From assembly GCA_022511225.1 (NCBI GenBank), contig JAFLRZ010000009.1, forward strand, positions 1-64,000: a stretch of DNA of 64,000 bases. Direction: 5' to 3'. Shown here piece by piece: positions 5,195 to 21,188 of the stretch. The translations under genes were made by a program, and so were the position numbers. Below the pieces are notes generated by a model. That model was not told the origin of the DNA. It saw only the letters and a list, made by a program, of their open reading frames with translations, and searched no databases. The DNA comes from Eubacterium sp. (lineage in GTDB: Bacteria > Bacillota > Clostridia > Oscillospirales > Acutalibacteraceae). Position 1 is the first letter of the stretch. Each line of letters begins with the position of its first letter.

Positions 5195-5238
5195 AAACAG
5201 GCTCAATGTCAAATTCAATTTTGACGTTGAGCCTGTTT
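5195..5238 (-). terminator. Terminator of the ATP-grasp/CDP-glycerol operon
   Basis: Inverted repeat AAACAGGCTCAA(t)GTCAAA...TTTGAC(g)TTGAGCCTGTTT just past the stop of the 5252-6490 gene. Confidence 0.75.
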
Positions 5239-5251
5239 TAATTATATTAAT

Positions 5252-6490
5252 TTATTTGAACAAAATATCAAGCAGTCTTTGTGATGCCTTTCCGTCATTC
5301 ATCTGATTATATTCAGCATTGAAACGTGAAAGCGACGCTTTGTTTCGTTCTTCGTCATAATCAATTTTTTCAATTGCATCAACAAGCTCTGCCTCTGTTT
5401 TGAGTACTTCACCGGGCAGACTGTTTATATCAATGTAAAAGCCTCGCACCTCATCACGATACTCCTCCATATCATACATATAAAACAGCATTGGTCTGCC
5501 GAGAATTGCATAATCAAAGAACACACTTGAATAATCGGTAATCAGCAAATCGGAGATAACGTAAAGCTCGTTTATATCGTCATAATCAGATGCATTATAA
5601 ACAAAACCGCTGTATGCATCAAAATCAAATTCATTTGCAACAAGATAATGCGCTCTGAACAGAATTATATAATCCTTCTCAAGCTTCTCCCTGAAATAGT
5701 CAAAATCAACAGGATTATTATATACATATCCGTTATGAGCATCGTGCTGATTATCTCTCCACGTTGGGGCATAGAGAATAATTTTTCTCTTGTCATTTTC
5801 AAGACCGAGCTTTTTTTTGATTTTCTCAATATCGCCGCTGTCATAATTGACAAGGTAATCATTTCTTGGATAGCCTATCTGCAAAACCGCATCCTTCTTG
5901 CCGAATTTCTCAAGCCTCCATGCCGTTATAAATTTTTCGGTTACAAAATCACACGGTGACAGAAGATAATCAAGTCGCTTTGCATCATTTCTGTATTTGC
6001 TTCTGATTTCTGTAAGTGAATTCATTGCGTTATTGGAGTTTTCAATATCATATCCAAGCTTTTTCAAAGGTGTTCCGTGCCAACACTGAACGTAAACCTG
6101 CTCACTGCTCGGAGTCCAGAAATCAAGGGCTCTGGAATTAAAAATCCAGTATTTAGCCATATGCAGATATTTTTCACATTCCTTGCTCTTGTTTCTTATA
6201 ACCGTCGTGTTTCTGTTTGCCTCAAGAAAGCTGTATTTCTCAGGCTCATCAAACAGCCAGACAAACCTATAATCAGCATACTTATCATCGCAGAGCATTT
6301 GCTCATAAACCGCCTTTGGACTGCAAGCATAGCTTTTTCCGTTATATGAAGCGAAAATAACAAGCTTTTCGTCAACCTTAGACGCTGCTCCGGCAGTTTT
6401 ATAGCTCACTCTGCGAATCAGATTGCGAGTGTTTCGCATAAAGATACGCAGGAATGTTGATTTTTCAGCAATTTTGATATGTGTTTTCAC
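5252..6490 (-). CDS. CDP-glycerol:poly(glycerophosphate) glycerophosphotransferase family protein
   Basis: QCWHGTPLKKLGYD, LYAPTWRDN, DLLITDYSSVFFDYAILGRPMLFYMYD motifs of the TagB/TagF family. Confidence 0.9.
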   Translation of the reverse strand: MKTHIKIAEKSTFLRIFMRNTRNLIRRVSYKTAGAASKVDEKLVIFASYNGKSYACSPKAVYEQMLCDDKYADYRFVWLFDEPEKYSFLEANRNTTVIRNKSKECEKYLHMAKYWIFNSRALDFWTPSSEQVYVQCWHGTPLKKLGYDIENSNNAMNSLTEIRSKYRNDAKRLDYLLSPCDFVTEKFITAWRLEKFGKKDAVLQIGYPRNDYLVNYDSGDIEKIKKKLGLENDKRKIILYAPTWRDNQHDAHNGYVYNNPVDFDYFREKLEKDYIILFRAHYLVANEFDFDAYSGFVYNASDYDDINELYVISDLLITDYSSVFFDYAILGRPMLFYMYDMEEYRDEVRGFYIDINSLPGEVLKTEAELVDAIEKIDYDEERNKASLSRFNAEYNQMNDGKASQRLLDILFK

Positions 6491-6518
6491 AAAATTCTCC
6501 TGTTCCGATGTGCAGACC

Positions 6519-9116
6519 TCAGTCTAATTTGTTTTCCTGTTCTGCTTCTTTTCTTTGTTTTATCTGAATCGCCTTTCTCATAATAACGGCAATAGGATAA
6601 AACATTTTGAAATGTCTGAATGCCTTTTTATCGTTGTCATCCTTAATGAAATGAATATCGGCAGTTTCCATATATTCCTTGTATTTTTCTCTTGAAAGTC
6701 TGCCGCCGACGTATTCCTCGATGAGAACCTTTTCACTTACAAAGGTTTTTCCTGTTTCCTCAACCTTAACGTCGAGGTCAAGAGGAATACCCTTAATCAT
6801 ATAATCCGCGAACATTCCCGGCAGATTTACTCCGCACTCAGTGAAGGCATAGCCGGATGCACCAAAGCGCAAATTGAGTTCAACAAAATACATTTTGCCG
6901 TCTGCGGTTTCAATAAGATCAACGTCATAAAGACCGTCGAAATTGAGGGTTTCTATAAACTTCAGAATATCATCTATAAGCTCCTGATGCATTGAGCAAG
7001 GAAGAGTTCTGCCAACAACGGCAACACCTCTGTGCTCCTTTTGCCCTCCTTGTTCTGCAACGAAGAAGCCCGGACCGATAACACCATTCTTTGTGCTGAC
7101 CCCCAAGAGGGAATATTCTTTATTAATTTCAACGAAGTCCTCAACAAGCATTTCAATAGGCTTCCTTTTGGAGAACTTAGTCAAATAGCCTCTCAGCTCC
7201 TCCTCGTTCTCGCATTTTCTCATTCTGCCCTTTGAGCTGTTCTTGCTGATATTAGGCTTCATAAAGCAGGGATACGTTACGGTTTCAGGTATCTCGAACT
7301 CTCCCTTATATGCCTGAATAACACATGAATTGAGAACGGGAAGATTAGCTTCAATTGCAAGATTCTTCTGAGCCTCCTTGCTCATAAGATTGCATATTCC
7401 GTCCTGCTCATTATTGATGTTCGGAATGAGATAATATTTGCTGAGCTTGTCATAGTAATGGTCTGCAACGTACGCAACAAGGTCGTCAGCAGGGATGAGC
7501 AGCATTTTTCTGTTAGGATCGGCAAGCTTTATAAGGCGCTTGACAATCCTTCTGTTCTTTCTCCTTGAAACGCATACATAATAACCCTTGATATACTCGC
7601 TATATGTATCCGGCTGCATTTTCTTGAGCAGATTTGACTGCTTGGGTCGAACCTGAAATATTCTCAGAACCTCAACCTCATATCCTGCCTTTCCAAGTGA
7701 CCTCGCCATAGTGAGATTCGAGCAGTAGTTTCTGCCCGAAACAAGCACTCTCGGAAGAGGAGAATTTGGATCTCTTCTGTTCTTTTTCTTTGTCTGAGGA
7801 TAGCTTAAAAGGTGATATTTCACGGGTCGGAGCACCTTCTTTAAGCGATACGTCAGCACCTTGTAAATAGATTTTATTGTTCTTTTTACAGTTTTCTTTA
7901 TCTTATTTTTAAAACGTCTTCTCTTTGCTCTTTTGATTTCCTTTGAGAAATATTCATAGGGAAGAGGGTCTTGCTCATCACGAAGAAGGGTTATATCGGA
8001 ATTATCAATGCATTCCTTAAGCTCCTTCTTGCTCATAAAGCCCTTGATGTGGTCCTCCCATGCAATTTTCTCATAAATAAAGGTTTTGTTATATTCATCA
8101 ACCTTTTCCTCTTCAGGAGTGTGGGGCTCGCCATAAGCCTCCTTAACGAACAGCTCAGGAAGATTGACTCCGCTCTTGAAATATGAGTAGTTCGGACCAC
8201 CGCTTCTGAGGTTAACCTCGTTGAAATAGACCTTGTCGCCCGATATTGCAAGCTCAAAATCAAACATTCCGAAATAATGGAAGCTCTGCATCATCTTTAT
8301 TATCTTGTCCTGCAAATCTCCCATTTCCTCAAACGGAACAAGCTTTCCCGACAAGGTTACGCCCTTTTCATACTGAGCAACGTTTGTCTTTTTTATAATA
8401 GCGGGAATTATTATTTTATCATCAAAGCATATTCCGGAAAAGTCTATCTCGTTGTCTATCTCAAGAAATTCCTGAACGAGAACGCTGCGGTTTGCAAACT
8501 TCCTGCGAAGTCTGTTAAGATGCCTATACAGCTCCTCCTCACTGTTACAGCGAGCCATTTCTTTTTTATATCCCGTTATGCTCTCAACCGGCTTAACAAA
8601 GCAAGGGTAAACCATATCGCTCGGAATTTCGATTTCAGGGTTGTCCAAAGGTATAGTCCATTCAAGCGGAGTTGGTATTCCGGCACGTTTTGCAAGCTCG
8701 CTTTGAACGATTTTGCTCATATGCACAGTCATAGAACCTTCTCCGCCGCCAATAATTTCAGGCATTATGAATATTTCAGACAGTGCATTTCTGTTTAAAT
8801 CCATAACTGATGCAGTGTAGTCATCAGTAGGGAAGAGAACGGGCTTGTAGCCAAGCTCCATATCTCCGTATTTAAGCAGCTCATCAAGAAATTCGACGTC
8901 GTTGCCGTCCTTAACCTTCCTCGAAACAATCTCAACCGAGTTTCGAACGTATTTACTGCATCTTGCAATTTCGGATTTGCCCTTTCTGAAAGCACTTGCA
9001 ACCAAATCAACAGTGTATCCTGCCGAGCCGAGCGACCTTATAACACTGAGTCCCGTTGCATAATTTCTTGAAAGAACTACTACTAAATTTTTATTTGATT
9101 CCATTTTGATCTCCAA
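6519..9116 (-). CDS. Double-domain ATP-grasp protein (fused A and B modules)
   Basis: Two N-terminal Rossmann-like motifs (VLSRNYATGLSVIRSLGSAGYTVDL; VSGRNYCSNLTMARSLGKAGYEVEV), each followed by ATP-grasp motifs (CFVKP..; FNEVNLRSGGPNY and FVELNLRFGASGY). Confidence 0.9.
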   Translation of the reverse strand: MEIKMESNKNLVVVLSRNYATGLSVIRSLGSAGYTVDLVASAFRKGKSEIARCSKYVRNSVEIVSRKVKDGNDVEFLDELLKYGDMELGYKPVLFPTDDYTASVMDLNRNALSEIFIMPEIIGGGEGSMTVHMSKIVQSELAKRAGIPTPLEWTIPLDNPEIEIPSDMVYPCFVKPVESITGYKKEMARCNSEEELYRHLNRLRRKFANRSVLVQEFLEIDNEIDFSGICFDDKIIIPAIIKKTNVAQYEKGVTLSGKLVPFEEMGDLQDKIIKMMQSFHYFGMFDFELAISGDKVYFNEVNLRSGGPNYSYFKSGVNLPELFVKEAYGEPHTPEEEKVDEYNKTFIYEKIAWEDHIKGFMSKKELKECIDNSDITLLRDEQDPLPYEYFSKEIKRAKRRRFKNKIKKTVKRTIKSIYKVLTYRLKKVLRPVKYHLLSYPQTKKKNRRDPNSPLPRVLVSGRNYCSNLTMARSLGKAGYEVEVLRIFQVRPKQSNLLKKMQPDTYSEYIKGYYVCVSRRKNRRIVKRLIKLADPNRKMLLIPADDLVAYVADHYYDKLSKYYLIPNINNEQDGICNLMSKEAQKNLAIEANLPVLNSCVIQAYKGEFEIPETVTYPCFMKPNISKNSSKGRMRKCENEEELRGYLTKFSKRKPIEMLVEDFVEINKEYSLLGVSTKNGVIGPGFFVAEQGGQKEHRGVAVVGRTLPCSMHQELIDDILKFIETLNFDGLYDVDLIETADGKMYFVELNLRFGASGYAFTECGVNLPGMFADYMIKGIPLDLDVKVEETGKTFVSEKVLIEEYVGGRLSREKYKEYMETADIHFIKDDNDKKAFRHFKMFYPIAVIMRKAIQIKQRKEAEQENKLD

Positions 9117-9137
9117 ATCAAATTTTTTATCTTTCTT

Positions 9138-10739
9138 TTATTTTGAGCTGTTAAAATCATAATACTGCTCAAGCACGCATTTCATTCCTTTTTTCTCAGT
9201 TGCATAAGGAGTGGAAAGCAAAACTATACCGGGCATTGCGTTGACTTCAATAAGCTCAGGACCGTCTACAGATACTGCGATATCCCATCCTAAATATCCC
9301 TCGATATGCTTCTGCGTGCATGCAGTAGTTACCATATCAATAATCTCTTTAAAATACGGAATTTTGAAGCCTTTAATCGTAGTCTTGGTCAGAGGATGCT
9401 CTTCAAAGGCATTTCCGTACTGGTCTGCACCGTTGGTTACAACGATACCCGTTTCCTTGTCAACAACCGCGCACATTCCGCCGCTGTGGAAATTATCTAC
9501 TATTGATTTTCCTCCGCCGATTCTGAATGAGGTATAGGCAATGTCAAACATTTTTCCGTCGGAGGTAACAGGTTCATGATTTGATGAAACAGTTACGACT
9601 CTGATAGTGTTAACAGAGCTGTCAGCCATTTTGTTGATATCCTCATGCTGCTTAACAAACTGCTCAACAACACCCTCGGGATAATTCTTCAGCTTGTTAT
9701 ACACCTGCGAATGATTGCCTTCACTGAGGTCAAATGCCTCAACACCAAAGCCCTTGTGTCCTTGAAGCGGCTTATAAATAATTCTGTCGCTCTGAGCGAA
9801 TTTTTCAACAAATTCTGCCTCACTTATCTTTGTGTTAACACACCAAGGTCTGATAATACATTCAGCAAAAAAGTCGTTTGTTAATTCCTTGTTGCAAAGA
9901 ACAGAAACAAAGCTTCTGTCAATATCATATTTTTTGCCGACCTGCTTTGAATTATATGTTAATGCAACGCTGTCCTGCTCTTCATCTGTCAGCTCATAGA
10001 AGTGATAAATAAAATATTCCTTGGTGGTGCAGTGAGTTCTTTCTTTTGCAATTTTAACCTTTTCCTTCGTTTCTTCTCTGCTCCAGCCTGTAGCGTTCAT
10101 TATTTTGCCGCGATATTCCTCAACCTCTGCTCTTCTTGCCTTCTTATTTTCTTCTAAATATTCCTTGTAGATTCTGTTGTGTTCCTCTTTGGGATATTTA
10201 TAAAGTTGAAGTCTAATATAGTTTTTATTGCTGATTCCAAGCTTGTTTTTTGCCCTTTTTAACTGTTTTTCAGCCTGCTTGTGAGTGCATGAGGTTGCGA
10301 GCATAATGGTTTCTACTCTGCGCTCGAATACTTCTTCGTTTGCCTTAATCTCAGAAATCATCTTCTCAAGCTCAGTATTCAGACCTGATTCGCTGTTGAA
10401 AATACTTTTGCTGAAAGGCGTGTCAATACGGTGCATCAGGGTAGCCATTGCTTTGAAGGCGTGCTTTTCGTCCCAATCCATTTTTTCGGCTATCAGTTTA
10501 GCTGTTTTTTGCAATATCCCATATTCCATTGCAATATCTTCCTCTTCGTAAATATAAAAGTTAAAAGCATTGTAGTGTTTAAAAGTTATACCGTATTTCT
10601 TTTTTACGGATTTCATCTTGGCTTTAGCCTCGTCAAAGCTCCATCCGGTTTTATTAACAATACTGTTTATATCGTCAATCTGCTGCTTAGACAGCTTTCT
10701 AATGTTATTTTTAGGTTCTGCCTTTGATAATTCAAACAT
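9138..10739 (-). CDS. Sugar-transfer-associated ATP-grasp-like protein with three N-terminal ~50-aa repeats
   Basis: C-terminal IIYKPLQGHKGFGVEAF...VNTIRVVTV...HSGGMCAVVDKETG...GYLGWDIAVSVDGPELIEVNAMPG. ATG at 10739 has SD AAGGTG; the ORF track extends to a GTG at 10748. Confidence 0.85.
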   Translation of the reverse strand: MFELSKAEPKNNIRKLSKQQIDDINSIVNKTGWSFDEAKAKMKSVKKKYGITFKHYNAFNFYIYEEEDIAMEYGILQKTAKLIAEKMDWDEKHAFKAMATLMHRIDTPFSKSIFNSESGLNTELEKMISEIKANEEVFERRVETIMLATSCTHKQAEKQLKRAKNKLGISNKNYIRLQLYKYPKEEHNRIYKEYLEENKKARRAEVEEYRGKIMNATGWSREETKEKVKIAKERTHCTTKEYFIYHFYELTDEEQDSVALTYNSKQVGKKYDIDRSFVSVLCNKELTNDFFAECIIRPWCVNTKISEAEFVEKFAQSDRIIYKPLQGHKGFGVEAFDLSEGNHSQVYNKLKNYPEGVVEQFVKQHEDINKMADSSVNTIRVVTVSSNHEPVTSDGKMFDIAYTSFRIGGGKSIVDNFHSGGMCAVVDKETGIVVTNGADQYGNAFEEHPLTKTTIKGFKIPYFKEIIDMVTTACTQKHIEGYLGWDIAVSVDGPELIEVNAMPGIVLLSTPYATEKKGMKCVLEQYYDFNSSK

Positions 10740-10749
10740 AAAAATCACC

Positions 10750-11949
10750 TTATCCTTTGACTTTATATAATATTCTTACTAACGCAGATAAAAAATAAAA
10801 TTTTCTGAAGTATTCATATGGCTTCATATCATCTTTGCTTTTTACAAAAAAGATGTCTGCACTGTTCATATATCTTCTCACCTGAGAAGCACTTATATCT
10901 CCTCTTGCAAACTCCTCCATCAGCACTTTTTCACTGATAAACAGCTTGGATTCCTTAACCCTTGCATTCTCGTCAGCAGGTTTGCCTTTCATAATATAAT
11001 CGGCATACATACCGTAGAGGTTTACTCCAAGCTCATTTAGTGCATAGGTTGAGGCACCCGCCCTGAAATTGATTTCAACAAAATACATTTTGCCGTCTGT
11101 ATTCTCAATTAAATCTATATCAAACATTCCGATATAGCCTATGCCTTCAACAAAGCGGCTGCATTTTTCTATTATCTCATCAAAACCATCGGGATTCACG
11201 GTTTCACCCATAAGAGCAACGCCCTTTCTGTCATGATGACCGCCTTCAACAACCCTGAACACTCCTGACGTGATTGCTCTGTTTCCTGTTGAAAATCCGA
11301 GGAGGGAATATTCATTCTTTATTTGAGCATACTCCTCGGCAAGCATTTCAAAATCGCCATTGCCTGCATATGCAGCAAGAACCTTAAAAAGCTCATTTTG
11401 ATTTTCGCATTTTCTCATTGCGTCCTTTGTGCTTTTCATACTCACATTAGGCTTAATAAAGCAAGGATAATGCACGTCATCGGGAATACTGAATTTTCCG
11501 TTTTTCGATTTAATAAGACAGCTCTGAAGCAAAGGCAGCTTGTATTTTTCAGCCTGCCTCTTCTGCTCGTTCTTATCCATCAGTCTTATTATTTCTCCTC
11601 CTGTGCCGTTCACACATGGCGCAAAAAAATATTTGCTAAGTTCATCAAGGCTTCTGTCTACAGCACAGCAAACGTAGTCATCAACCGGAACAAGAAGCTT
11701 TTTCGTCCCTTCGGCAAATTCAAGCAGACAGTCTGCTATTGCGTTCTCGTCCGAACCGACAACAAGCTCCCTGTATGAAGAAACGTACTTGCTTTTTGCG
11801 TCGGGCTTCATCGTTCTGAGGAATTTCATTGCGTTTGGCTTTTCCTTAAAAACCTTAATTACCTCGACCTCATATCCTGCCGAGCCAAGTGCTCTCGCCG
11901 TTGTGAGAATATTGCAGTAATTTCGACCTATAACAACAGCTTTTTCCAT
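10750..11949 (-). CDS. ATP-grasp protein (standalone B module)
   Basis: VIGRNYCNILTTARALGSAGYEVEVIKVF; CFIKPNVSMKSTK; FVEINFRAGASTYALNELGVN. Close paralogue of the second half of the 6519-9116 protein. Confidence 0.9.
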   Translation of the reverse strand: MEKAVVIGRNYCNILTTARALGSAGYEVEVIKVFKEKPNAMKFLRTMKPDAKSKYVSSYRELVVGSDENAIADCLLEFAEGTKKLLVPVDDYVCCAVDRSLDELSKYFFAPCVNGTGGEIIRLMDKNEQKRQAEKYKLPLLQSCLIKSKNGKFSIPDDVHYPCFIKPNVSMKSTKDAMRKCENQNELFKVLAAYAGNGDFEMLAEEYAQIKNEYSLLGFSTGNRAITSGVFRVVEGGHHDRKGVALMGETVNPDGFDEIIEKCSRFVEGIGYIGMFDIDLIENTDGKMYFVEINFRAGASTYALNELGVNLYGMYADYIMKGKPADENARVKESKLFISEKVLMEEFARGDISASQVRRYMNSADIFFVKSKDDMKPYEYFRKFYFLSALVRILYKVKG

Positions 11950-13160
11950 TATTCTCTTCCCAAAGCCATCAGAGCTCTGTGCTTGACGGCGCTTAATCTT
12001 ATTCTTTTATAGAAGCTCCTGCCCGGAGCAGGGTCGTTTTTATCAGTAAGGAGAGTGAAATCAGAATCCTTAATGCATTTATTCAGCTCATACCTGCTCA
12101 TATGGGAGTGAATATAATCCTCCCACGCAACCTTCTCATAAACAAAGCTCTTGCCAAAGGACTTAATCCTTTCCTCAGCCTCGCTGTGTCCTTCTCCGGT
12201 AAGCTCTTTTATTAATATATCGGGAATATTGACTCCGCACATATAATAAGCATAGTTCGGGCCACCGCTTCTAAGGTTGATTTCATTGAAATAAAGCATA
12301 TCACCGCACGCGAACAGCTCCATATCAATCATCCCGAAATAGTGAAGCGACCTGAGCATGTTTTCAAGCTTTTCCTTGCTATCTCCCAAAACCTCAGCAT
12401 CAAGCATAACACCCGACATTGTTACACCCTGCTCGTGTTTTGAGATTCTCGTTTTCTCAATCACACCGGGGATAATAATTTTTTCGTCAAGGCATAAGCC
12501 TGATAAATCATATTCAATATCAATATTAAGATATTCTTGAACAATAATTTCTCTGTCGCTGAAAAAAAGCTTCATAGCATTAAGGTGTTTCGAAAGCTCA
12601 CTTTTGTCATAGCAAACTCTCATCTCGGACTTGCTTCCGTTAATGCTTTGAGCAGGCTTCACAAAACAGGGATAAATAATATCCTTTGGAATAATAATAT
12701 CCCTTCTTAAATCAATAACCCATTCTGAGATTGTTGAAATTCCGCACTCCCTTGCAAGCTCGCTTTGCCAGCTCTTATCCATAGCCTTATGAAGCGGAAT
12801 CGGGTTTTCGCCCACTGTCACAGGCATAAGAAAATGCTTGCTGAGAGCATCATAATTATCTGCAACGATTGAAGCGGTGTAGTCATCGGCAGGGAAAAGA
12901 ACTATCCTTTCACCTGAGCCTGCATATTTCATCAGCTCACTTATAATGCCCTCTCCGCTGTCTCCTTGAATCTTCCTTGACAGAACCTCAACCGATTTGC
13001 GAACGTATTTACTGCAAGCTGCTATAACCGAGCTGCCGCTTTTCTTAACGCTTGCAATCAAATCAACAGTGTAGCCTGCAGAGCCGAGTGAACGTATAAC
13101 TCCAAGCCCCGTTGAATAATTCCTTGAAAGCACTATAACGAGAGGTTTTGAACTGCTCAT
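11949..13160 (-). CDS. ATP-grasp protein (standalone A module)
   Basis: VLSRNYSTGLGVIRSLGSAGYTVDLIAS; FNEINLRSGGPNYAYYMCGVN. Start reset to MSSSKPL at 13160 (SD AGGAG); overlaps the next gene as TAATG. Confidence 0.9.
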   Translation of the reverse strand: MSSSKPLVIVLSRNYSTGLGVIRSLGSAGYTVDLIASVKKSGSSVIAACSKYVRKSVEVLSRKIQGDSGEGIISELMKYAGSGERIVLFPADDYTASIVADNYDALSKHFLMPVTVGENPIPLHKAMDKSWQSELARECGISTISEWVIDLRRDIIIPKDIIYPCFVKPAQSINGSKSEMRVCYDKSELSKHLNAMKLFFSDREIIVQEYLNIDIEYDLSGLCLDEKIIIPGVIEKTRISKHEQGVTMSGVMLDAEVLGDSKEKLENMLRSLHYFGMIDMELFACGDMLYFNEINLRSGGPNYAYYMCGVNIPDILIKELTGEGHSEAEERIKSFGKSFVYEKVAWEDYIHSHMSRYELNKCIKDSDFTLLTDKNDPAPGRSFYKRIRLSAVKHRALMALGRE

Positions 13161-13268
13161 AAGAACTCCTAATACTATATACTCCCTAATATATATACTA
13201 TAACAAATAATTATTATAATATATAACGTAGATAATGTCAATTTATAAAACGTTGATTTAATAAAGAA

Positions 13269-13302
13269 AAGCTCTCATCACACAAAAAACGTGTGATAAG
13301 AG
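13269..13302. terminator. Terminator-like hairpin downstream of iorB
   Basis: GCTCT-cATCACAC-aaaaaac-GTGTGAT-aAGAGC inverted repeat. Confidence 0.6.
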
Positions 13303-13351
13303 CAAATCTAATCAGTGATTCTCAAATATTATGTTATATATAGAGATGTTT

Positions 13352-19391: not shown

Positions 19392-20333
19392 TTGGTGTTT
19401 ATTATGGTCTGTATTTTATTGGTACTCTTTGCTTTGTTAATATTGGATTTGTACATTGTCGACTCTGCCGCAAGATATTTGTGCGACAGAACCTATACTA
19501 AAAATCCAAAATTATTTTTTGGGCAAAGAGAGAAAAAAGTAAATACAAAGAGCAAGAGCCGTCAAAGAGCAAAAAATCTTGAAAAAACTGTTACTCAAAG
19601 GTACGAAATAACCGCAGATGACGGTGCTAAGCTTGTGGGTCATTACTACCCCTGCGATAATGCAAAAAGGGTAGTAATCGCAGTCCACGGCTGGAAATCA
19701 AGCTGGAGCTATGATTTTAATGCACAAGCGGAATTTTTGCATAACAATGCCTGCAGCGTATTATTTATTGAACTTCGCGCCCATGGAGAAAGCGAAGGCA
19801 GATATATGTACTACGGAAAACGGGAAAGATTCGATTTGCAAAAGTGGGCAGAGCTTGCAGAAAAAGAGATTGCAGACGGTCTGCCGATATATTTTTACGG
19901 AATGTCAATGGGCTCAACCTTATCGGTAATGGCAAGCGATTTGTTTGGCAGCAGCGTAAAGGGAATAATAGCTGACGGCGTGACACCTACTCCGCGAATT
20001 GTTATGAAATCCATTGTGAAATCCATTAATCTGTCTCCGGCTCTATTCTACTGGCAAATCAGAATTGATTTGAGGCTAAGGCTTAAATGTGACGACAATG
20101 ACTACACGGCACTAATGGCTTTGGAAAACTGTAAAACACCGATTCTTATGCCTTACGGAACGGCTGACGTACTGACAACACCCGCAATGTCAATGCAGGT
20201 GTTTGACAAAATAAAAGCACCAAAAAAGGCTATTCGGTTTGACGGTGCAGGACATATGAAAAGCTATTACACCGACCCCGAAAAATATCAGAATGCTTTG
20301 CTGCAATTCTTTTGTGATTGCGAAAACGAATAA
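19392..20333 (+). CDS. Alpha/beta hydrolase
   Basis: IAVHGWKSSWSYD; YFYGMSMGSTLSVMAS; GAGHMKSYYTDPEKY. Confidence 0.88.
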   Translation: MVFIMVCILLVLFALLILDLYIVDSAARYLCDRTYTKNPKLFFGQREKKVNTKSKSRQRAKNLEKTVTQRYEITADDGAKLVGHYYPCDNAKRVVIAVHGWKSSWSYDFNAQAEFLHNNACSVLFIELRAHGESEGRYMYYGKRERFDLQKWAELAEKEIADGLPIYFYGMSMGSTLSVMASDLFGSSVKGIIADGVTPTPRIVMKSIVKSINLSPALFYWQIRIDLRLRLKCDDNDYTALMALENCKTPILMPYGTADVLTTPAMSMQVFDKIKAPKKAIRFDGAGHMKSYYTDPEKYQNALLQFFCDCENE

Positions 20334-20339
20334 ATCAAG

Positions 20340-20374
20340 AAAAAGAGAAGGAACGTTGAGTTCCTTCTCTTTTT
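20340..20374. terminator. Terminator
   Basis: AAAAAGAGAAGGAAC-gttga-GTTCCTTCTCTTTTT. Confidence 0.85.
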
Positions 20375-20560
20375 GACGCTTAAGGTATAGTGGAAAATAA
20401 ACAAGAACAGATAACCGATTAACCTAGTATATCCGGCTGTAATATATCCTAATTTAGAAATAAACAGAGCGTTAAGCGTTACATTTATTACTGCACCGAT
20501 TAATATGGTATGGTAATAACTGTTATGCCTTTTTGAAAAATGTTGCAAACAGTATACCAT
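20375..20560 (-). pseudogene. Remnant of a polysaccharide flippase (Wzx-like) gene
   Basis: YYHTILIGAVINVTLNALFISKLGYITAGYTRLIGYLFLFIFHYTL resembles the C-terminal TM region of Wzx-type flippases; the rest is missing. Confidence 0.5.
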
Positions 20561-20633
20561 ATTACTGATTTCTTTTCGGCAGACAAATTTTTATAATTGA
20601 TTATACCGCCCGAAATAATGTTCGTGATTTTCA

Positions 20634-21060
20634 TTATTTGTTTAATGCTTCCAAAATCATATTATAATTTCTTTCGCAAGCCTTGAAATCATCGTACTTG
20701 AACCAAAAACTAAACTTAGTTTTATATAGTTCATCTTCTTTAAGCGGGTGTGTAAGGTTATATTGCAACGATTTTTTCATCTCATCCCAATTATACACAA
20801 CATCGCCGCAGCACATATTTTGATCGGTTCGTAAACAAAGCCTCTTTCTCTATCATATTGCTCAAAATCTGCAAACAGATATATAACCGGTCTGTGTGCC
20901 AATAAAAAGTCAACCGATATAGATGAGTAATCGGATACTAAAATGTCGGCTTTGTTGAGTAAATCATAGATATATTGTTAACAGCGTCAAGCTTATCGGT
21001 GCAGCCTATAGTGTCGTTTCGTGAAAAACCGTTAAATACCAGGTTTTCATAAAATGATTT
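20634..21060 (-). pseudogene. Degenerate CDP-glycerol glycerophosphotransferase gene (C-terminal part)
   Basis: Reading across frames gives FYENLVFNGFSRNDTIGCTDKLD...NKADILVSDYSSISVDFLLAHRPVIYLFADFEQYDRERGFVYEPIK//CCGDVVYNWDEM..., with frameshift(s). Confidence 0.75.
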
Positions 21061-21188
21061 TTTTGATTTTAATAATTGCCCTGATTTTTAAACAGTCTTG
21101 CAAATGCTAATCATCAGTGATAAAATATATGTAATAACCTAATACCCCAATTTCAGCACGTTAATTTACATAATATCGGAGACCCATA

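Follow-up and report, generated by a model that had tools for sequence, protein, structure and literature searches.

Amide-forming enzymes of the ATP-grasp superfamily are already known from loci for surface polymers. The TupA-like ATP-grasp enzyme Cj1438C has been reported to form an amide on the glucuronic acid of the C. jejuni capsule (PMC11800379), and a looser parallel is provided by an archaeal pseudomurein cluster, in which an ATP-grasp enzyme occurs together with Mur ligases (PMC11915815). The combination of ATP-grasp ligases with a glycerophosphotransferase, or ATPgrasp_ST by name, was found in no paper of the open-licence collection searched, in agreement with the view of the first-pass annotation of this DNA that no named pathway has such a composition. 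The operon described here unites the two predicted activities within the window (the whole stretch of 64,000 nucleotides that was analysed), and its source genome (G000) is 98.65% complete.

By ORF reading, the operon (13160-5252, minus strand, like all genes and signals described for it below) consists of five consecutive open reading frames in the order A, B, R, AB and Glyphos. Gene A (11949..13160) encodes a stand-alone ATP-grasp ligase of 403 aa (ATP-grasp and CarB-like matches), an A1-position module by its place in the A1 clade (support 0.999). Its start was set at 13160, where an ATG has AGGAG in front; the longest ORF of A reaches 13241 and so runs into the promoter. Gene B (10750..11949) encodes a second stand-alone ATP-grasp ligase, a B1-position module of 399 aa (Pfam ATP-grasp match at the cut-off; B1 clade, 0.968), and R (9138..10748) a protein of 536 aa in which four three-helix repeats of ~66 aa precede a sugar-transfer-associated ATP-grasp domain (ATPgrasp_ST, PF14397; 1.6e-38). 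AB (6519..9116) encodes fused A3-B2 ATP-grasp ligases with a basic helical linker between them, for which the ATG at 9104, with GGAG in front, seems a likelier start than 9116. The last gene, Glyphos (5252..6490; 412 aa), belongs to the CDP-glycerol:poly(glycerophosphate) glycerophosphotransferase family (TagF/TarF-like; Glyphos_transf, PF04464, 1.7e-107). A and B overlap in a TAATG at 11949, B and R are separated by 1 nt, R and AB by ~21-33 nt, and AB and Glyphos by 28 nt. A near-palindromic operon terminator (5195..5238) has a 19-pair stem followed on the minus strand by TTTATTT. The first-pass description of five consecutive minus-strand genes with tight junctions and a shared terminator is thus borne out by the ORFs, the junctions and this stem. 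At the other end, a putative sigma-70-type promoter, TTGACA-17-TATAAT (13213..13241), was assigned by consensus match only, agreeing at 12/12 positions and ranking first among 35 regional sites, while the terminator of a preceding POR-family gene (13271..13303; 14-pair stem and T tract) separates that gene from the operon. No transmembrane-like segment was found in any of the five proteins. Elsewhere in the window, 14 kb from the operon, the remains of a broken Glyphos_transf gene (20288-21100, minus strand; Pfam match 20828-20977) lie with a flippase-like fragment.

Pfam ATP-grasp families were matched by A, B and both halves of AB, with A and B alone near or just below the cut-offs, and in NCBIfam the A and B modules fall near CarB, PurT and Ddl, with scores far below the equivalog cut-offs. 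A role as carbamoyl-phosphate synthase or in purine metabolism was rejected on these scores and on the envelope-gene context of the relatives. Glyphos matches the solved TagF at 3.5e-74 and, at 307.6 bits, falls short of the 550 that is the cut-off of the TarF model. The TupA-like ATP-grasp family was matched by none of the five proteins (Pfam, E 0.01), and a PDB sequence search returned no match for B alone or R alone. AlphaFold2 models of AB and R were built from alignments of the window proteins with those of related loci (mean pLDDT 88.8 and 87.4). With Foldseek, the AB model matched CarB along its length; matches spanning one module were obtained to PurK, to biotin carboxylase and to L-amino-acid ligases, including YwfE and the B. 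licheniformis enzyme; the R model matched RimK, Ddl and LysX/ArgX over ~250 columns. The fold comparison proposed in the first-pass annotation thus gave RimK and Ddl for R, and CarB, PurK and L-amino-acid ligases for AB. Taken together, Pfam and NCBIfam matches, models with pLDDT of 87-89 and Foldseek all point to the ATP-grasp fold, and the predicted folds of the A, B and R modules are of the amidoligase type.

When 73 modules were aligned, all four A/B modules of the window proved to retain the ExNR motif, the catalytic Lys and an acidic residue at 281, which is E in A modules and D in B modules. The active-site residues of A (K168, E281, E293, N295 and R297) are intact, as is the active site of B, and E501 and N503 of R are nearly invariant. 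The same Lys, acidic and ExNR residues are kept across the A1, A3, B1 and B2 positions; the modules of the A2 position, which is not present in the window, mostly show DxG, with Gly in place of the acidic residue at 281, which may leave them inactive. The N-terminal half of R, made of the repeats, has no Pfam match, and the R-type repeat of ~66 aa recurs in other loci, in fusion proteins of the ST, A2 and Mur-ligase kinds. In many loci it stands ahead of ligase modules or separates them, and it is possibly a docking element. The linker of AB has a net charge of +22 (+5 to +29 across 19 aligned fusions), and membrane association of AB is a guess drawn from this charge.

When GTDB genomes were searched with the A alignment, 20 loci with the same kinds of module emerged, mostly in Clostridia MAGs but also in Emergencia sp. 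1XD21-10, which has a full cluster, and Ruminococcus albus KH2T6; genes were annotated by phmmer against a reference set drawn from these loci, and by Pfam for selected proteins. The recurring plan is A1-B1-ST-(A2-repeat)-A3-B2, variously split or fused. In a FastTree phylogeny of the 73 modules, high support was obtained for the A1 (0.999), A2 (1.0) and B1 (0.968) clades and for all A modules together (0.991), and the A3 (0.148) and B2 (0.455) clades were recovered with weak support; the modules of L030 fit the position scheme poorly. The distinction between "A" and "B" modules drawn in the first-pass annotation is therefore real, A-type modules forming one clade (0.99) and B1 another (0.97). 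Since modules group in the tree by their position in the locus, at least three positions (A1, A2 and B1) descend as units, and the module order is, on this phylogenetic evidence, inherited.

The order A-B fusion, ST, A-rep-A-B, TagB, Glyphos, TagD is found in L016/L037 and L017/L038, and L022/L041 adds TagH-TagG. Other loci have CapA, Mur-ligase, LRR, WcbI and AMP-binding partners. CapA (PGA_cap) is fused to ATP-grasp_ST in L009/L019, L023, L025 and L028, and in L025 to a Mur ligase as well; the 19-residue hydropathy maxima of these fusions (1.38, 1.11, 1.71 and 0.97, respectively) suggest that the fused CapA domains may be cytoplasmic, the value of L025 being high enough to leave that case open. 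In L027 and L028, a WcbI-domain protein and an AMP-binding (DltA-like) protein are encoded directly upstream of the ATP-grasp fusion. In a Mogibacterium genome (L039), a TagGH-TagD-Glyphos locus also encodes two or more additional ATP-grasp_4 proteins, one of which has a weak L-amino-acid-ligase match at its C-terminus. A sibling locus in three congeners (L054, L055 and L056) encodes a protein of 942-964 aa with this repeat type and an ST-like region, further ST-like ATP-grasps, a TagB-like protein and an NlpC-like protein; L054 and L055 have CapA-like genes in addition.

The link to teichoic-type genes was counted over 13 informative loci, namely the window and 12 untruncated loci with A1/A3-type modules (L016, L017, L018, L021, L022, L023, L024, L025, L026, L027, L028 and L030); L018 is represented in the count by L040, another contig from that genome, on which B1 and a Glyphos gene are neighbours, and L015, L019 and L029, which end too soon, were left out. 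TagB-like, TagF-like, TagD or TagGH genes lie beside the modules in nine of the 13: Glyphos_transf is found in the window, L016, L017, L021, L022, L026 and L040, and TagGH only in L023 and L024. Such genes were not seen at L025, L027, L028 and L030. TagGH is clear in L020, L022/L041, L023, L024 and L039, the truncated L020 reading TagG-TagH-TagB-A. A Glyphos gene lies within ~22 kb in 5/12 non-window loci, for which the chance, calculated from how densely Glyphos genes occur in the carrier genomes, is ~3e-6, a value to be read in the light of loci that are not fully independent and of a test chosen post hoc. Furthermore, the window Glyphos falls together with its counterparts from the clusters at L016, L017/L038, L022, L026, L040 and L044 (nested nodes 0.89-0.91; immediate node 0.59). 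Genome neighbourhoods, whose analysis had been suggested from the outset, thus join the ATP-grasps of the relatives to TagB-like, TagF-like, TagD and TagGH genes in a conserved module order; neither an orthologous cluster already assigned to a polymer nor a lack of co-conservation, which the first-pass annotation had named as counting against it, was found.

Carriage is rare and patchy, the relatives being dispersed over gut Clostridia. The cluster is present in 2/81 searched genomes of the genus, in 3/301 of a family sample at 1e-30, and, at 1e-100, in 2/397 of an order sample and 1/392 of a class sample, the own genome being included each time. No relatives were found on viral contigs, and a plasmid search gave one match of 25% identity, in a 2.6-Mb Acetoanaerobium record, which is not useful.

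Of 15 carriers, 12, including G000, gave no match to TagA (PF03808), with a control match in B. subtilis; TagA is present in the other three, among them both that are Glyphos-negative (Fisher p 0.03, with very small numbers). Because TagA is missing from the own genome and from most carriers, the operon is, judging by gene content, not part of the textbook wall teichoic acid pathway. The own genome has a TagD homologue, 71% identical to the Emergencia one, so that both a glycerophosphotransferase (PF04464) and a CDP-glycerol supply are represented, as well as LCP genes. One weak TagG-like match (23%) was detected, with no TagH seen beside it, and a separate locus on contig C8 encodes a TagB-like protein and a double-Glyphos protein of 1129 aa.

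The explanation favoured here, at a probability of roughly 0.5, is that a cytoplasmic series of ligases makes an amide-linked oligomer, which is joined to glycerol phosphate to give a hybrid surface polymer. The reaction, substrates, step order, linkage, product, membrane association and surface display that we infer would be as follows. A1, B1, A3, B2 and the ST-type ATP-grasp, in the cytoplasm and possibly bound to the membrane surface, would each activate a carboxylate, by way of an acyl phosphate, and couple it to an amine (or a hydroxyl), yielding a short amide-linked oligomer or repeat. Glyphos would then add glycerol phosphate from CDP-glycerol to the oligomer, or attach the oligomer to a chain of glycerol phosphate, after which the hybrid would be exported and displayed on the surface. 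The hybrid polymer is favoured because the genes form one operon with intact active sites, and because of the teichoic-gene linkage, the Glyphos grouping, the inherited order, the amidoligase folds, the CapA and Mur partners, the TagD and LCP genes of the own genome, the precedent of Cj1438C, and the lack of transmembrane-like segments in the five window proteins together with the basic linker charge. It is weakened, however, by L025 and L027, in whose carrier genomes (MAGs) no Glyphos_transf gene was detected, by the weak A3 and B2 clades, by the misfit of L030 and by the weak TagG-like match of the own genome. A more specific form, rather unlikely as it stands, would be a collinear, carrier-free peptide assembly line in which fused ATP-grasp modules add one residue each, the defined amide oligomer replacing the disaccharide linkage unit made by TagA as the acceptor from which TagB/TagF-like enzymes would extend a polymer of glycerol phosphate. 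The assembly line of the first-pass annotation draws strength from the linkage to polyol-phosphate genes and from the conserved order, but its strict wording, that a polyol-phosphate polymer is aminoacylated, is weakened: with Glyphos undetected in two carriers and TagA in 12 of 15, the ATP-grasps may have another substrate, to which polyol phosphate is a partner or a decoration.

That finished polyol-phosphate polymer is directly aminoacylated or peptidylated by the modules, the first option of the earlier annotation, is accordingly given little credence, even though the modules are linked to TagB/TagF-like, TagD and TagGH genes. Besides the two carriers in which Glyphos went undetected, the chemistry is against it, since ATP-grasps usually form amides and glycerol phosphate offers hydroxyls. 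An alternative that is unlikely, if worth serious attention, is that the ATP-grasps act on a capsular polysaccharide, either amidating its uronic acids or attaching amino acids to its sugars, and that Glyphos adds a glycerol-phosphate side group. Cj1438C sets the precedent, R is annotated as sugar-transfer associated, and more distant A-like modules occur in Wzx/Wzy-type capsule loci (L013/L033, L031, L032 and L034). The window operon, however, lacks genes for glycosyltransferases and for uronic acids, the closest clusters showed no recognisable ones either (judged mainly by matches to the locus-derived reference set), and several different ordered modules are more than one amidation needs. 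Least probable of all would be a soluble peptide-like natural product or a storage polyamide, with the Glyphos gene incidental: YwfE and the B. licheniformis ligase among the fold matches, and the rare and patchy carriage, would suit such a product, whereas the repeated teichoic-gene linkage, the Glyphos grouping and the CapA and LRR partners speak against it.

If the hybrid polymer is real, some Clostridia would make a class of envelope polymer in which glycerol phosphate of the teichoic type is united with peptide-like amide chemistry, built by a modular enzyme series of inherited order. The full cluster of Emergencia sp. 1XD21-10 would offer an entry point to sequential ATP-grasp action without carrier proteins, and the cluster would bear on the surface chemistry that these bacteria show to host and phage.

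Compared with known systems, the cluster resembles the TupA-like amidoligases (Cj1438C; tupA of teichuronopeptide) in placing an ATP-grasp enzyme in a surface-polymer locus, but Cj1438 is a single ATP-grasp fused to a glycosyltransferase, whereas the window cluster has a series of four to five. With the CapA/CapB/CapC system of poly-gamma-glutamate, several related clusters share CapA and Mur-ligase domains, some of them fused to ST-ATP-grasps; the window's A/B modules are instead ATP-grasps and not Mur-type ligases, and the window operon does not show the make-up of that system, as it has neither CapA nor Mur domains (such as that of a CapB-type ligase) by Pfam, the one CapA match of the genome lying elsewhere. 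The A/B fold is that of CarB, also a tandem of two ATP-grasps, and of BacD/YwfE-type L-amino-acid ligases, but identity in the listed fold matches is ~11-18% and the operon has no CarA partner. Homologues of TagB, TagF/TarF, TagD and TagGH beside the modules of the relatives recall the wall teichoic acid pathway (TagO/A/B/F/D/G/H), of which, to our knowledge, ATP-grasp genes form no part. Amidoligases in surface-polymer clusters are already known; what is new here is a collinear series of several modules with a link to teichoic genes.
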